Part shown: piece by piece, positions 8,903 to 37,275 of the stretch
How positions within the stretch are numbered: position 1 is the first letter of the stretch
How the letters are laid out: every line of letters begins with the position of its first letter
From: Candidatus Kapaibacterium sp.
GTDB taxonomy: Bacteria > Bacteroidota > Ignavibacteria > Kapaibacteriales > JAEUSM01
Length of the DNA: 64,000 bases
NCBI GenBank assembly: GCA_016788785.1
Contig: JAEUSM010000009.1
Location: 62,001 to 126,000 of the forward strand
Reading direction: 5' to 3'
Program-made: the position numbers and the translations under genes
The notes under the pieces: generated by a model
What the model was told of the DNA's origin: nothing
The model's input: the letters and a program-made list of their open reading frames with translations, nothing else
The model's database searches: none

Positions 8903-10815
8903 TGTAAGTAATATTTGTAGAGCAAAAATTGTTCTTGTTTGGTGATTTTCAGTGTAGTTACTTCTTTGAGTGTATCAAGTTTTTGAATCATTGGTGCATT
9001 TGTGTTGATCAAAATATGGGTATGTTTATCAGAAAGTAGAAGATATCGTTGTAATTGTTCAAATGTATATTGTGAAGATTTTGGTTCGATATTGAGAAAA
9101 TACGTCACAGTATTGTTGTTTTGATGAATCGGAAGTAAGGTTGCATTTGGAAAATGATAGACAAAATCTTCTTTTACACTGTAAGGCAAATTCTTTGCAG
9201 TAATGTACACAATTGGAAAACAAACTATTACCACTAAACATCGAAATACGAATATTCTCAGATGCTGTGAATAGCTACAATACAGCATTGCAACCCCAAA
9301 AAACAGTGCGACTATCCATATCGAATAACCAGTTATTTCTGTTGGAATAAACTTTTGTAAATAATACATTCCAGTGTTTGCAACATCTATGAAAAGGGAA
9401 GTAGCAATTCCGCTAAAATACGCTAAATTTTCCGAAAGTAAGGAAAAACTATAGGTGATAATTGAGGATAAAAAAGCCAAAAGGTATAAAAACAGAAAAA
9501 CAGTATTACCAATGATTGAGGCAAGGGAAAATTTGTAAAAAATCAAACTTCCAATTATGTTTGAAATAAGCCCAGCTGACAGAGACAACGAAATAGAAGG
9601 AATAAGAACATTGTTCAAAAATCTTTTCCCAATGAAATTTTGAAAGATGTTTTCTACACCAAGTTTCAATAGTGTACTGAAACGAGTATAGCAAAGATAA
9701 ATACCAATTATTGCAGTTGTAGAAAAGTAAAAACTAATTGAAAAAAGCGTTGTAGGTTGAATTATCAATTGGATAACAGTAGCAAATGCCAATAGATTTA
9801 AAGGTCGAATTGTTCTTGAGAAATGGGGAATGATTAAAAACACAAACGACATAATAGCAGCTCGAAATGCGGATATTTGCGTTCCAGTTACATAGACAAA
9901 CAATATTAATAGAATTCCGAGAATAAGAATTTTGAGTATATGTGAACGAATCATAAACAAAGAAAACCAACAAATGAAAGTTATTACAACTACATGGGTT
10001 CCACTTGCAGACAAAATATGAATCAAACCAAAACTTCCAAGAATGTCTATATCTTCTTGTTCAATTCCTTTTGTTTGATCAAAAAGCATTCCTAATAGAA
10101 AAGGAACAAATTTGGGTAATACAAATCTCTGTAAGGAATCCTCTACTGCATTTCGCCAATTGTGAAGGTCACTTTCAAGCGTCCATTTTGGGTTATCAGA
10201 TATGACTATGTTATGAGCAACTATTGACGAATTTGCATGGATATCTTTAGAAATGAGTACTTGTTTGGAATTAAATTCAGAAGGGAAATATGAGTCTTTC
10301 GGAAATTGGATTTGCACTATTGATTCTATATTAGCACCTACTTTGAGATACGAAGGAATGGAATCACCATGTATGTAAGACATCAATCGAATTGTGTATT
10401 TTTCATCTGACAAAACTCCATTGTATTTAACAATCTTAATTGTCCCATCCAAAATACAATTCAACGTGCTGTCAGTTTGTTTTTCGATTTTCTCAATTGT
10501 ACCAGCAAAGTGAGCTGGAATTATTTTTCCTTCCAATGACTGCGGAATCGGAGTGTAGGTGCTGTTCATAAGGAAAAAACCTGTTAGAAACGTAAGTACA
10601 TAATATACACCACTTTTGTGAAACACAAAGAAAATTCCAACAGAAAATATTACAATTAAATTGAAAGCATACACCAAATCAAAGGAAAAGTTTTTCCATA
10701 TCACTACAAACAGCATCCCAAATACCAATACTAATAAATACCGCACCATTGGGTACTCTGTATAGTGGATTTGAGAAGCTACTACTAATTCTTTATGAAT
10801 TGTTTTGTCTTTCAT
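8875..10815 (-). CDS. comEC: ComEC/Rec2-family DNA uptake channel protein
   Basis: The 646-residue polytopic membrane protein has two N-terminal helices, a soluble OB-like region (about 85-235) and the Competence domain. Diagnostic motifs are HILSASGTHVVVITFI, matching the HLLAISGLHV block, and QISAFRAAIMSFVFL, matching SxxRAxxM. About ten membrane helices follow. It would carry single-stranded DNA across the inner membrane in natural transformation. The C-terminus is only a short tail, so the metallo-beta-lactamase domain found in many ComEC proteins is missing, as is common in this phylum. It is divergently transcribed from the OmpA/PD40 gene. Confidence 0.88.
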   Translation of the reverse strand: MKDKTIHKELVVASQIHYTEYPMVRYLLVLVFGMLFVVIWKNFSFDLVYAFNLIVIFSVGIFFVFHKSGVYYVLTFLTGFFLMNSTYTPIPQSLEGKIIPAHFAGTIEKIEKQTDSTLNCILDGTIKIVKYNGVLSDEKYTIRLMSYIHGDSIPSYLKVGANIESIVQIQFPKDSYFPSEFNSKQVLISKDIHANSSIVAHNIVISDNPKWTLESDLHNWRNAVEDSLQRFVLPKFVPFLLGMLFDQTKGIEQEDIDILGSFGLIHILSASGTHVVVITFICWFSLFMIRSHILKILILGILLILFVYVTGTQISAFRAAIMSFVFLIIPHFSRTIRPLNLLAFATVIQLIIQPTTLFSISFYFSTTAIIGIYLCYTRFSTLLKLGVENIFQNFIGKRFLNNVLIPSISLSLSAGLISNIIGSLIFYKFSLASIIGNTVFLFLYLLAFLSSIITYSFSLLSENLAYFSGIATSLFIDVANTGMYYLQKFIPTEITGYSIWIVALFFGVAMLYCSYSQHLRIFVFRCLVVIVCFPIVYITAKNLPYSVKEDFVYHFPNATLLPIHQNNNTVTYFLNIEPKSSQYTFEQLQRYLLLSDKHTHILINTNAPMIQKLDTLKEVTTLKITKQEQFLLYKYYLHKKTSQSRL

Positions 10816-31796: not shown

Positions 31797-32810
31797 TTAT
31801 AATAGTTTTCTTTCAATACGCTCTTTTGCTTCCGATAGTAATTGATGTAGCTTTTTTTCTAATTCCTTTTTAGGTGGGATTGCTGTCCAAAACTCGGCTA
31901 CCATTATTCCATCTTTATGCATTTCTAATAGTTCAACTTGTTCTTTGTTACTTTCTGCACAAAGTATCAAGCCTATAGGCTCGTTTTCACCTTCTTGTTT
32001 TTCATATTTATTCAACCATTTTAAATACAACTCCATTTGTCCTTTGTGCTGTGCTTCAAATTTACCTATTTTAAGTTCAATTGCCACTAATCGCTTAAGG
32101 TGTCTGTTATAAAAAAGTAAATCTAAATACAAATCATCGCCATCTATTATCATTCGTTTTTGTCATTCAACAAATGCAAATCCTTTTCCTAATTCTAATA
32201 TAAATGCCTCTAATTCTCTTAGTATTGTTTGCTCTAAATCATTTTCTAGAAACGTATTTTGTAATCCTAAAAAATCCAAAATATACGAATCTTTAAAGTT
32301 GTTTTGTATTTCAGTAGGGTATTGTGACAATTGCACTTCTGCTATTTCTTTTCTTTCAAATGCCTTTCTTTTAATTTGATTCCGTAATTCCCTTACACTC
32401 AATACTTCCTCAAAAGTTTTTTTGAGCATAATACAATTGTGCTTCTATTGACTTAATTGGAATTAGGACTAAAAAATGTGACCAACTTAATTGTCGTGAC
32501 AGTGTAACGACAATTTGAAAATCTTTAAACTTTTCTGCAAATTGAATCATTCTTCTAAAATTTTTTCAGCAAAGTTTCTTCCGTATCTAAGTTCTAATTG
32601 TCGTGACACTGTCACGACAATCTCTTTTCCGTAATCAGCTCGAGTATTATTTAGTATTGCGGTATTTATATGGTTACCGATTTGCCAAAACAGTATGGTA
32701 AGGGAGCTATTAACTTGAGAAACAACTTGTTGTTTGCTTTGTTCTATTAAATTGGAAATTTCATTCACTAAAAGAATTTCTTCACTAAGATTTAATGGGA
32801 TTTTTTTCAT
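31797..32810 (-). pseudogene. PDDEXK nuclease YhcG (DUF1016) with two frameshifts and a stop
   Basis: Three consecutive minus-strand frames (32810-32547, 32429-32163, 32153-31797) make one YhcG-type protein when joined. They give an N-terminal DUF1016 helical domain, LSVRELRNQIKRKAFERKEIA, and the PDDEXK core with YLDLLFYNR and AIELKIGKF. The first lesion is one A missing in a run at 32561-32566. The second is one A too many in the run 32417-32423. The third is an in-frame TGA at 32163-32165 where Arg (CGA) fits. Catalytic Asp, Glu and Lys are still there. The two run errors could be sequencing faults; the TGA is less easily so. Intact homologues act in restriction-like or nuclease roles. Confidence 0.85.
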
Positions 32811-33019: not shown

Positions 33020-33117
33020 CGTATATTTGAAGGTATTACAAACGACTCTCTATAGGTTAATGTCGTTTTTTAGTAAAAAAGTGACATTTGCGATGAAAAA
33101 AATTTTAAATAAAGCTC
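33020..33117 (+). pseudogene. Truncated duplicate of the DUF4256 promoter, leader and first codons
   Basis: About 98 bases match 36643-36742 with few differences. They include TATATTTG (33022-33029), the AAACGAC/GTCGTTT stem-loop (33040-33068), GTGACATTTGCGATG and the codons MKKILNKA. Similarity stops after about eight codons, so only the 5' end of the gene was copied or kept. The -33 TTG present in the other copy is ATA here, so this promoter is probably dead. Confidence 0.7.
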
Positions 33118-33200
33118 GAACAATCCCGCAAAGAAGCAGATTTGTTTGTTTGTTAGGTCTGTCTCCTACTGTTACTTTCCCATTCATCAACCAAAAATAC

Positions 33201-33226
33201 AAAAAGGCAGGATTACCTACCTTTTT
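33201..33226 (-). terminator. Terminator of the exported-protein operon
   Basis: AAAAAGGCAGG and CCTACCTTTTT pair with one mismatch around ATTA. On the minus strand it ends in TTTTTGTATTTTT, 20 bases after the stop codon of the last gene. Confidence 0.75.
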
Positions 33227-33245
33227 GTTAAATATACATTATGCT

Positions 33246-33975
33246 TTACCTGACATTGCAATTTGCACCACATGGAATATTAAGTGGTTGACCCATTGGG
33301 TTTTTCTTAACACAATGTGTAATTGTTGATGTTGGGCATCCATATACTTCAACACCAGGACCCTGTTCTTGAAATCTTGTTATTGCTAGATATTCAATAT
33401 CTTCTGGACCATCTGTGTAGATTTTTCTTTTTATGTCAAAATCTGCATAACAACATTTTTTACCACAATACACTTCTTTAGATAAATCTAAATACCTTGC
33501 TGGATCAGGGTCTATTTGATACATTTTTGGTATAAGTACATTTTGTCTGTAGTTAGTGTCATCACAACATGTAAATGCTGTATTGAGTAAGGGCTTTACT
33601 GTACATATCACCTTTGTATAACATTCAGTAGTAAAATACACCCTCCAAGTAATATCATCTGATTCTGTAAGATTTGTATACTTTCTTATCAAATGATTAG
33701 TAACTAAATCTTTAACTGCTTTTAGAGATAATCTAGGGTCGTGATGACTCAAATTGTCCCAATCTAACACCAATATACCCCTTAGGATCTCCGCCTTGAG
33801 GTAAACACCATTTGTAGGTCATAGTTGCAACATATCCAATATCTCGATATGATATTTCATCGTCAGTTACATTGGCAAATGTTTTATTTGATGGTTCACA
33901 TGGTTGTGCAATTACAATGAATAAATTACTAAATATAATAAGTATGACAAAGATGGTTATTTGTATTGTTTTCAT
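33246..33975 (-). pseudogene. Exported Cys-rich protein, frameshifted
   Basis: One frame (33975-33733) gives a signal peptide ending VIAQ and about 55 residues of mature protein. A second frame (from about 33821 open, ending 33246) gives about 175 more residues. The frame changes between 33733 and 33821. The mature part is Cys-rich, with CC pairs (TCCDD, CGKKCC) and a KEVYCGKKCCYADFDIKRKIYTDGP block. This block resembles KEACNSGELKTGCC in the first gene of the operon. The signal-peptide end shows that it was an exported protein. Whether the shift is natural or a sequencing fault cannot be told. The upstream stop codon also forms the AAGGA ribosome site. Confidence 0.65.
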
Positions 33976-33987
33976 AAGTGTAATTCC

Positions 33988-35520
33988 TTAATTTTGTTTA
34001 ATAAATGTTGAAGTTTTAATGCTTCCATCTAGCATTGTCATTTTGACCAAATATACACCTGCTGAAAGATGAGATACACTTACTTGCTTTTTGTTAGAAC
34101 TTGTTTGAACTATCTGTCCATTAATATTGAGAATTTGTACACTTGTTATATCATTAGTATTTCCACTAATTGATAGTGTGGTATTTGTTGGGTTTGGAAA
34201 CAATCGAATTTCTTCACTTTCTGTTTCTTCAACACCTGTTTTTGTAGCATAAAGTGATGATTTTAGTAAGAGACCCTGATGTGCTAACAACCAAATATTT
34301 CCTATTCCATCAATTCGAATCCTTTTAAATGATGTGCCTAAATAGTATGATTCTTGGTTGTCAGCATCTTTTTTCATGATTCGAAAAATTGAATCTATTC
34401 TTTCGTCTCGATAGGGGTCAGCTCCATAGTCAGGATCAATAGGATTTGTTACAATTCTATTGCGAAAAACAGTTGTTTCTTTAAAAAATGCATCCATAGG
34501 TACTTCTTCAAACCTATTATTTGAACTTAATTTATACAAATTACCTAACCGATTTTGTAAGTTTGGAGATTGCATTAAGAAAAAATACTCACCATTTGGA
34601 GCTTTTGCCATTGACCAAGGAATGAGCTTTTCTCCATTTTGTGTAGTAGGGTATCCATCACTTTCATCAAAGTATTTCCATACACCATCTTTTAATACAT
34701 GAAGTCCACCACAACATTTTTGCCCTGTGGTTTCATCAATAGCGTTTCGTAAAAGGACAAATGTTGTTCCATCTTCATCCTGATGAATCTGATTTAGTTC
34801 CAGTCTACTTGGGCTAATTCCTAATCCATAATTAGGATACATTGGAGATAATTCACCAGCCAAATTCCTAGAGCTAATTGCATTCGTAGAATTCTGAAAA
34901 AGTAGATTGTTACCATCAAATGTAAATGGAGTCTCAACATCAACAGCAGTATTTGTAAAAGTCTTCATTGTTGGATATAATTCTGAAAAGTTCTTTCTAT
35001 CAAAATTTGCTCCATCAAATGTCATAATTTCTGTTTTGTTTTTTCCTGTTAATCCCTTATTGTATCTTTCCACTTGGACATACATTAGATTGTTTTTGTC
35101 AAATTGGTAATCAAAATACCAATCAATCAACACTGAATCGTACAAGGGATTAGGAAATACGGAATAATCCCTCCAACCATCTTGTTCAAAAGAATGCACT
35201 CTAAAAGCTGTCAACCAAAGTTTACCATTTCTGTCAAAACGAACTCTGCCTCCAGAATGACCTTGAGCTAATTCTTTTCCATTTGGGGTTTGAATGGTGT
35301 CTAACAATATTTTCCAAGAATTATTCTGATCAATTTCTGCAACTTGAATTATAGTTGACTGTGGTCGATGAAGCAAAACTACCACTCTGTCACCGTAAAC
35401 ATCAATATCGTTATAGAAAAAACCAACATTTTTTGGAAATTGAGGTAAGGATAAATCTTGGGCAAAAGATGGAACAACTGTGATTACTACAGTAAGAAAA
35501 TATAAAATTAAATTTTTCAT
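33988..35520 (-). CDS. Type IX secretion cargo protein with C-terminal sorting domain
   Basis: The 510-residue protein has a signal peptide (cut near FAQ at residue 21) and a beta-propeller-like body with repeated WLL/WLTA strands and IDGIGNIWLLAHQGLL. The last 75 residues are a Por secretion sorting domain. They have IRLFPNPTNTTLSISG, VQILNINGQIVQ, HLSAGVYLVKM and a basic terminal strand. It should be exported by Sec and then carried across the outer membrane by the type IX system. Its start shares the TAAGGAAT ribosome site with the preceding stop, and it is the middle gene of a three-gene operon. Confidence 0.88.
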   Translation of the reverse strand: MKNLILYFLTVVITVVPSFAQDLSLPQFPKNVGFFYNDIDVYGDRVVVLLHRPQSTIIQVAEIDQNNSWKILLDTIQTPNGKELAQGHSGGRVRFDRNGKLWLTAFRVHSFEQDGWRDYSVFPNPLYDSVLIDWYFDYQFDKNNLMYVQVERYNKGLTGKNKTEIMTFDGANFDRKNFSELYPTMKTFTNTAVDVETPFTFDGNNLLFQNSTNAISSRNLAGELSPMYPNYGLGISPSRLELNQIHQDEDGTTFVLLRNAIDETTGQKCCGGLHVLKDGVWKYFDESDGYPTTQNGEKLIPWSMAKAPNGEYFFLMQSPNLQNRLGNLYKLSSNNRFEEVPMDAFFKETTVFRNRIVTNPIDPDYGADPYRDERIDSIFRIMKKDADNQESYYLGTSFKRIRIDGIGNIWLLAHQGLLLKSSLYATKTGVEETESEEIRLFPNPTNTTLSISGNTNDITSVQILNINGQIVQTSSNKKQVSVSHLSAGVYLVKMTMLDGSIKTSTFIKQN

Positions 35521-35531
35521 GGTGTGATTCC

Positions 35532-36437
35532 TTAATTATTCTCAAAACAACGACGACATTGACGACGGTTACTTGCGGGTGTAGGGCATTGAGGGCTTAT
35601 TGGTGCACTCCAATTGGAACACCCCCCACCGGAAGAAGTAGTTCGTCTTATTGGTCCCTCATAGAATACAAATTGAGCAGGATACTCTTCATTGCTTTTA
35701 TATCTATAAACAATTTCACAACAACCGGTTTTCAGTTCTCCTGAGTTACATGCTTCTTTGTACCAATATTCAATATACCTGATTCCGCTTGCAGCATCTG
35801 TTAAGATTGGATAACCTAATATTTCATCAATTTGTGTTGTATCTCCACCAGAACAACAATAATCTAACAACCCAATTCTACATCTCCTTTCCCAAAAGCA
35901 GGTATCTTGTTCAAACATTACAATTTCTAATATTCGATTACTATCTGGATAAACAGATTCCATTCGAGCTAAAGAATCAAGAATATAAATTTTAGAATAT
36001 TCGGACATAGTAGCATCATCAATTCCTGTGAGATGTTTTAATGAGTCATTTGCATCATCGGTATATCGATTTGAATCTGTAAGTGGATTAGGACCGTTAA
36101 ACTGAACCAAAATTCTAGTATCTGAGATTTTCTTATATTCAAATTCTCTTACAAAGCCCTCAAACATCCAATCAGGATAAATACTATCTAAATGTGGGGT
36201 CACTCGTACTTTTGGTACAGGATTCTGTATCCAACATTCTGGACTAATTTCATTTTGAGCATTCAAACATAAATGAGAACAAAACAATAAAATTGATATG
36301 AAGGACAAAAAGACTGTCGTCTTTCGGAAAATTATTGATTCAAAATAATTGAACCAATTAATTGATTTTTGACTGTACTGTACTGTACTGTACTGTTTCG
36401 AAGGTTGAGAAGATAACTTCCCAGTGAACTGAATCAT
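35532..36437 (-). CDS. Exported Cys-rich protein with pentanucleotide repeat in its 5' coding end
   Basis: The 301-residue protein starts at ATG 36437, supported by GAGGAAG at 36443-36449. An unusually long n-region of about 40 residues precedes the hydrophobic signal (VFLSFISILLFCSHLCLNAQ). That n-region is partly encoded by five ACTGT units (36372-36396, plus strand). No further ATG occurs in this frame before the signal peptide, so gain or loss of one unit would abolish the product. The mature part is rich in Cys (CCSGGD, CNSGELKTGCC, CRRCFENN) and Tyr/Trp with no known domain. It heads the three-gene exported-protein operon. Confidence 0.72.
   Translation of the reverse strand: MIQFTGKLSSQPSKQYSTVQYSQKSINWFNYFESIIFRKTTVFLSFISILLFCSHLCLNAQNEISPECWIQNPVPKVRVTPHLDSIYPDWMFEGFVREFEYKKISDTRILVQFNGPNPLTDSNRYTDDANDSLKHLTGIDDATMSEYSKIYILDSLARMESVYPDSNRILEIVMFEQDTCFWERRCRIGLLDYCCSGGDTTQIDEILGYPILTDAASGIRYIEYWYKEACNSGELKTGCCEIVYRYKSNEEYPAQFVFYEGPIRRTTSSGGGCSNWSAPISPQCPTPASNRRQCRRCFENN
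36372..36396. repeat. Pentanucleotide microsatellite, ACTGT x5
   Basis: Five uninterrupted copies of ACTGT on the plus strand (ACAGT in the coding sense) lie inside the first codons of the 301-residue exported protein. The unit is not a multiple of three, so slippage changes the frame. Confidence 0.95.
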
Positions 36438-36622
36438 GACGACTTCCTCGAGAAAATGGAAAATATATAACTAAACAATAATTATTCTTCTATTTTTTAT
36501 GATTCGAATACAAATTACGGAATAAAAATCTAATATCCAAATAAAAATCAATATAATTTTGTTTTCTTCAATTTCGGTCAAAAAAAGAGTTTTTACTTTA
36601 AAAAGAATTTTTATGATCAAAC

Positions 36623-36652
36623 TTGTTTTCTTTGTCAATTATCGTATATTTG
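36623..36652 (+). promoter_or_regulatory. Bacteroidota-type promoter of the DUF4256-VOC unit
   Basis: TTG at 36623-36625, 19 bases, then TATATTTG at 36645-36652, matching the consensus exactly. Transcription should start near 36659, just before the leader stem-loop. Confidence 0.65.
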
Positions 36653-36663
36653 GAGAGTGAAAT

Positions 36664-36696
36664 AAACGACTCCTTATAGGTAAGTGTCGTTTTTTT
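36664..36696 (+). promoter_or_regulatory. Conserved leader stem-loop followed by a T run
   Basis: AAACGAC (36664-36670) pairs with GTCGTTT (36686-36692) around a 15-base loop containing TATAGG. T residues follow to 36696. It lies in the 5' leader 20-50 bases before the DUF4256 start. The stem is retained in the partial copy at 33040-33068 while the loop differs at several bases. Attenuation or a structured regulator site are both possible. Confidence 0.5.
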
Positions 36697-36717
36697 AGTA
36701 AAAAAGTGACATTTGCG

Positions 36718-37275
36718 ATGAAAAAAAATTTAAATAAAGCTCAAACTGATCAATTTCTGGCTATTCTCAAAGACCGTTTTGGGAAAATAAACTATATAAA
36801 ACAGCCTAAATTGTGGGAGATAATCGAACAAAAACTAACGAATGCTCCCCAAAAACTGTGGTCGTTGAATGCAATGGAAGAAAGTGGTGGTGAACCGAAT
36901 GTCGTTTTATATGATTCCAACGCCAGTGAATTTATTTTTTACGATTGTGTGGTCGAATCCCCTAAAGGTCGTCGTAGTTTTTGTTATGACCCAGCGTCTT
37001 TAGCCTCAAGAAAGGAACACAAACCAGCTCATTCAGCGATTGGCTTTGCTGATGAAATTGGTATCGAAATGCTGAACAAAGAGGAATACCGATTTTTGCA
37101 ATCATTGGGTAAATTTGACAACAAAACATCCAGTTGGCTTTTAACACCAAAAAAAATTCGCGATTTGGGTGGAGCTATTTTTGGTGATTGCCGTTATGAC
37201 ACTGTTTTCACCTATCACAATGGTGCCGAATCGTATTATGGCTCCAGAGGTTTTCGTGGAAAGTTGGTTGTGTAA
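36718..37275 (+). CDS. DUF4256 family protein
   Basis: The 185-residue protein matches DUF4256 from LWSLNAMEESGGEPNVV through EFIFYDCVVESPKGRRSFCYD, LNKEEYRFLQSLGKFDNKTSSWL and GGAIFGDCRYDTVFTYHNGAESYY. ATG 36718 is chosen over an in-frame GTG 12 bases upstream, because the partial copy at 33092 keeps the same ATG context. It is cytoplasmic, function unknown. The VOC gene starts at the next base, so the two are translated together. Confidence 0.82.
   Translation: MKKNLNKAQTDQFLAILKDRFGKINYIKQPKLWEIIEQKLTNAPQKLWSLNAMEESGGEPNVVLYDSNASEFIFYDCVVESPKGRRSFCYDPASLASRKEHKPAHSAIGFADEIGIEMLNKEEYRFLQSLGKFDNKTSSWLLTPKKIRDLGGAIFGDCRYDTVFTYHNGAESYYGSRGFRGKLVV

Follow-up and report, generated by a model that had tools for sequence, protein, structure and literature searches.

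A pentanucleotide repeat array ahead of the signal peptide of an exported-protein gene: a candidate slippage contingency locus in Candidatus Kapaibacterium sp.

Can a short tandem repeat within the coding sequence of an exported protein act as an ON/OFF switch in a bacterium that encodes parts of a type IX secretion system (T9SS)? The question is raised by a pentanucleotide array in gene 1, the first gene of an operon that continues with genes 2 and 3 (Table 1). The operon lies in a 64,000-nucleotide stretch (i.e. C5:62001-126000; hereafter, the window) of a 2.97 Mb genome assembled in 18 contigs with an estimated completeness of 99.45%. The array was examined for its rarity, its effect on the reading frame and its presence in related genes, and the possible explanations were then weighed.

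Table 1. Coordinates of the array, the genes of the operon and associated signals within the window.
Feature	Position	Strand	Remarks
GAGGAAG, Shine-Dalgarno-like	36443..36449	(-)	five bases ahead of ATG 36437
Gene 1, 301-aa Cys-rich exported protein	35532..36437	(-)	ORF; signal read from sequence; no family match
(ACAGT)5 array, candidate slippage switch	36372..36396	(-)	coding-strand unit ACAGT
Gene 2, 510-aa propeller-like protein with type IX sorting domain	33988..35520	(-)	PF18962, TIGR04183
Gene 3, frameshifted exported Cys-rich protein	33246..33975	(-)	80-aa + 175-aa parts, different frames
Terminator-like hairpin past gene 3	33199..33228	(-)	pattern match only

Exactly five perfect ACTGT units were counted, as the initial annotation had reported, and these read as ACAGT on the coding strand. 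The array lies within the gene 1 ORF, approximately 40 bases (i.e. about fourteen codons) past the ATG and ahead of the signal peptide, and is translated as QYSTVQYS. The period-5 run at this position, taken from a 523 kb sample of the genome, comprises 20 consecutive matches, whereas none of twelve equally large 4th-order Markov simulations went beyond 13. The array is not a product of chance. Repeats were surveyed in sampled stretches amounting to ~0.90 Mb of usable sequence from the 2.97 Mb genome (one 20-kb stretch, L119, consisted entirely of N) and in 0.40 Mb drawn from four relatives within the order. The gene 1 array was the sole period-5 array with at least three copies in these sequences, and no second array of 4-10-base units with at least four copies was detected in them. 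Across the whole 2.97 Mb genome, three or more ACTGT units in a row occurred in a single place, and the leader DNA of gene 1 had no further genomic copy except short chance matches. The exact 25-base (ACTGT)5 array was also present in six IMG/VR viral contigs (L138-L143).

The consequences of a change in unit number depend on where translation starts. The start codon had been described as well supported. The Shine-Dalgarno-like motif and the frame, which is open from the ATG through the array, uphold this description in part, but the use of such motifs is weak across the genome, with a four-base Shine-Dalgarno core at -20..-4 in 49 of 282 ORFs as compared to 22 at a control position. The motif therefore supports the ATG at 36437 only moderately, and this codon is likely to be the real start of gene 1. 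The N-terminus then runs from the ATG through about fourteen codons and the array to QKSINWFNYFESIIFRKTTVFLSFISILLFCSHLCLNA followed by QNE, which has the appearance of a Sec-type signal with a plausible cleavage site between the two. This places the hydrophobic core late, at residue 39; in the 71 proteins of the genome that a simple hydrophobicity rule marked as putatively exported, the median onset is at residue 2 and the 95th percentile at residue 33. Structure prediction for the mature protein gave a mean pLDDT of 29 (three sequences).

Computation of the frames for different unit numbers produced a clear pattern. With two, five or eight units the frame of gene 1 is open (296, 301 and 306 aa, respectively), whilst with one, three, four, six, seven or nine units it stops after 19, 31, 24, 36, 29 or 41 residues, respectively. 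No in-frame ATG or GTG is present between the array and the signal core; the start-like codons in this interval are ATT/ATA codons, beginning with an ATT 19 residues ahead of the hydrophobic segment SFIS, and one TTG, located one residue ahead of that segment. Three further claims of the initial annotation (i.e. that a signal peptide follows the repeat, that no in-frame ATG precedes this signal and that a change by a single unit breaks the frame) were thus sustained, the first by reading of the gene 1 sequence.

Gene 1 had been assigned to an undescribed family, and searches of Pfam, NCBIfam and PDB agreed in giving no match. No orthologue was found among 61 genomes of the order and 391 of the class (all from outside the taxonomic family of this genome), with a family profile, or among GTDB contigs and plasmids. 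Weak matches to gene 1 in L003 and L004 were taken as chance, with the ORFs of L003 reading as ordinary housekeeping genes; a weak match within the same genome (L002; E 0.38) does not fall on a related gene, and an alignment of the propeller proteins against GTDB contigs confirmed no relative. Two more full-length relatives of gene 1 are present in the genome, both adjoining propeller genes related to gene 2. The nearest, on C6 (L043 12667-13593), exhibits 22% identity over 191 residues (E 1e-7). The other, on C15 (L040 11935-12660), was detected by profile and, as it is merely 13% identical, its family membership rests on the alignment together with the common context. Conserved cysteines of the family include C180, C186, the pair C239-C240 and C294. 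In these searches, this 301-residue Cys-rich family, encoded upstream of T9SS-tailed propeller proteins, was found in this genome alone.

The paralogous operon lacks any array. The C6 paralogue opens with MKPNFYLIDWCIRKT at its signal region (four residues earlier if a GTG is used), so that the leader and array are extra in the gene 1 copy; in the simplest history, one member of the family would have acquired a repeat-bearing N-terminal extension. A promoter and ribosome-binding site in common with this paralogue looked plausible by eye and was not significant, as 30 of 496 other genes equalled the score over 30 bases. Approximately eight propeller paralogues of gene 2 are encoded in the genome. 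One of those on C6 (L043 13909-15501) contains an internal TAA, and in the C15 operon a stop interrupts the third gene (L040 about 9600-10520). The gene families around the array look like they are both expanding and decaying in this genome.

Gene 1 had further been proposed to head an operon containing a T9SS cargo, such that expression of a surface set could vary. Gene 2 is co-directional with gene 1, starts 11 bases downstream of it and carries a C-terminal type A sorting domain with scores above the cut-offs (TIGR04183, 47.5 bits as compared to 23; PF18962, 51.7 bits as compared to 27), in a genome that also encodes PorV-family proteins; the cargo proposal is therefore supported. Type IX secretion genes of this kind point to a member of the Bacteroidota or a close relative. 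A surface location of the gene 1 product and joint switching of the set are more conjectural: the C-terminus of gene 1 had no match to a type IX sorting domain, and genes 2 and 3 each have their own AAGGA. TAAGGAATCACACC lies ahead of the gene 2 start and overlaps the gene 1 stop codon, and gene 3 has a near-identical counterpart ahead of its own start. With ribosome-binding sites of their own, genes 2 and 3 can be translated independently of gene 1, so that the set would switch together only through polarity or a loss of coupling. No terminator-like site was found within the operon on the same strand. Control of the whole surface set by the array might follow if such effects operate, and any influence on genes 2 and 3 is a guess.

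Gene 3 is divided into an N-terminal part (33975..33733) and a C-terminal part (33773..33246) in different frames. The C15 relative, in which the matching stretches share one frame ahead of a stop, indicates that the two are pieces of one protein. The operon is flanked by direct repeats (33026-33121 and 36651-36746) of ~87% identity over 100 aligned columns. The right repeat includes the start of a DUF4256 gene (36706-37275), and the left repeat contains a truncated copy of this start. Such repeats are as expected after duplication or single-crossover insertion, and the operon could be lost through recombination from one repeat to the other. Beyond the left repeat, a YhcG/DUF1016-type nuclease gene (31797-32810; Pfam PF17761 and PF06250) is split into three ORFs and contains a pair of near-palindromic ATTGTCGTGACA(G/C)TGT(A/C)ACGACAAT copies (32488-32621).

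The best explanation of the array is a functional switch in a translational contingency locus similar to opa, a reading to which we give about even odds. During replication the (ACAGT)5 tract would slip by one unit and, as five is not a multiple of three, gain or loss of a unit would put the signal peptide out of frame with the ATG. A peptide of 24 or 36 residues would then replace the exported protein, and reversion to two, five or eight units would restore it. The OFF state would remove the gene 1 product and could lower expression of genes 2 and 3 via polarity or lost translational coupling. A raised slip rate, mixed populations and selection keeping the tract are all three properties that we infer for such a switch. 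A non-triplet array beyond chance expectation is present in coding sequence, one unit more or less brings an early stop without rescue, and the unit number is exactly that used as the threshold (i.e. five) in surveys of contingency loci (PMC6321876, PMC5953494). As its anatomy is in these respects that of a slippage contingency locus, the locus was classed as a candidate. The array being far above chance and unique, the frame outcomes with an open frame downstream, and the absence of an array from the nearest paralogue all favour a switch, as do the late onset of the hydrophobic core, the layout shared with opa and the precedent of four units in H. influenzae hsdM. A more elaborate version, in which a lineage-specific Cys-rich/T9SS operon is governed by a pentanucleotide slippage switch, with the leader added to one member of a multi-copy family and the effect polar on the cargo, is considered unlikely.

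Three other explanations were weighed against a switch. The tract may have lengthened by neutral slippage within an N-terminal extension that tolerates change, in a gene that is weakly selected and heading for decay like its neighbours; its length might shift on occasion, but with no adaptive role. This is a serious rival because the unit number is the lowest usually accepted, no second such locus was seen in the sampled DNA and the neighbouring relatives are decaying, and the same features (i.e. a lone array in the sampled DNA, a unit number at the accepted minimum and related genes broken by frameshift or stop) count against a switch. The frameshift in gene 3, the stop in the third C15 gene, the internal TAA of the C6 propeller, the lack of a counterpart of the gene 1 leader in the paralogues and the failure to find another such array in ~0.90 Mb of the genome are all consistent with neutrality, whereas the frame of gene 1 itself runs unbroken from end to end and a five-unit non-triplet coding array stands far outside what this genome and the four relatives otherwise contain. 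Neutral slippage is regarded as somewhat less probable than a switch.

The remaining alternatives alter the role of the array itself. If translation started at the downstream ATT or TTG, the array would lie outside the true coding sequence and lengthen the 5' untranslated region. The paralogue starts at approximately the position of the ATT, the gene 1 leader is unusually long and the weak use of Shine-Dalgarno motifs makes GAGGAAG only moderate evidence for the upstream ATG. ATT is, however, a very rare start codon and has no Shine-Dalgarno-like sequence ahead of it here, and the TTG would leave no charged n-region, whilst the upstream ATG has a well-spaced GAGGAAG and a frame open through the array; a downstream start is thus judged improbable. 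Even less credence is given to the array being a row of regulator-binding sites or a structural DNA element. Proteins can bind tandem short sites, but this array is inside an ORF and past the ribosome-binding site, and it is not a shared operator in its present form since ACTGT x3 is found nowhere else in the genome.

A slippage switch in gene 1 would have close parallels amongst known systems. The opa genes of Neisseria contain (CTCTT)n in the sequence coding for the leader peptide, with each of ~11 copies carrying the repeat and a measured switching rate of ~1e-3 per generation (PMC6803597). In both opa and gene 1, a five-base unit is located in the ORF between the start codon and the mature protein, the product is an exported member of a multi-copy family and one unit more or less shifts the frame. 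The proteins are, however, unrelated, and the repeat occurs in every opa copy but in one copy here, where switching is putative. A short pentanucleotide tract in coding sequence is also found in hsdM of H. influenzae, where four units of (GACGA)4 are enough for frequent change (PMC2651432); hsdM differs in being a restriction-modification gene, not one for an exported protein, and in varying between strains. The mutation rate of some tracts above survey cut-offs may be too low for genuine switching (PMC6321876), and the genomes surveyed (PMC6321876, PMC5953494) carry many arrays in contrast to the lone array in the DNA sampled here. Surface functions of Bacteroidota do undergo phase variation at Bacteroides loci, yet in the cases named in one review this occurs through invertase-driven DNA inversion (PMC11868660) and not tract slippage. 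In the titles and abstract openings of the open-access papers retrieved, no exported-protein locus of Bacteroidota that varies in phase by repeat slippage was found. The mechanism itself is well known, and the locus would be a new instance of it in a new lineage and gene family.

The array provides a simple marker whose variation is testable via PCR or read counts. If the tract varies, a T9SS-bearing lineage would join the bacteria that switch exported proteins by repeat slippage within coding sequences, and such variation would point to a selective pressure, from phage, host or grazer, on this undescribed Cys-rich exported family.
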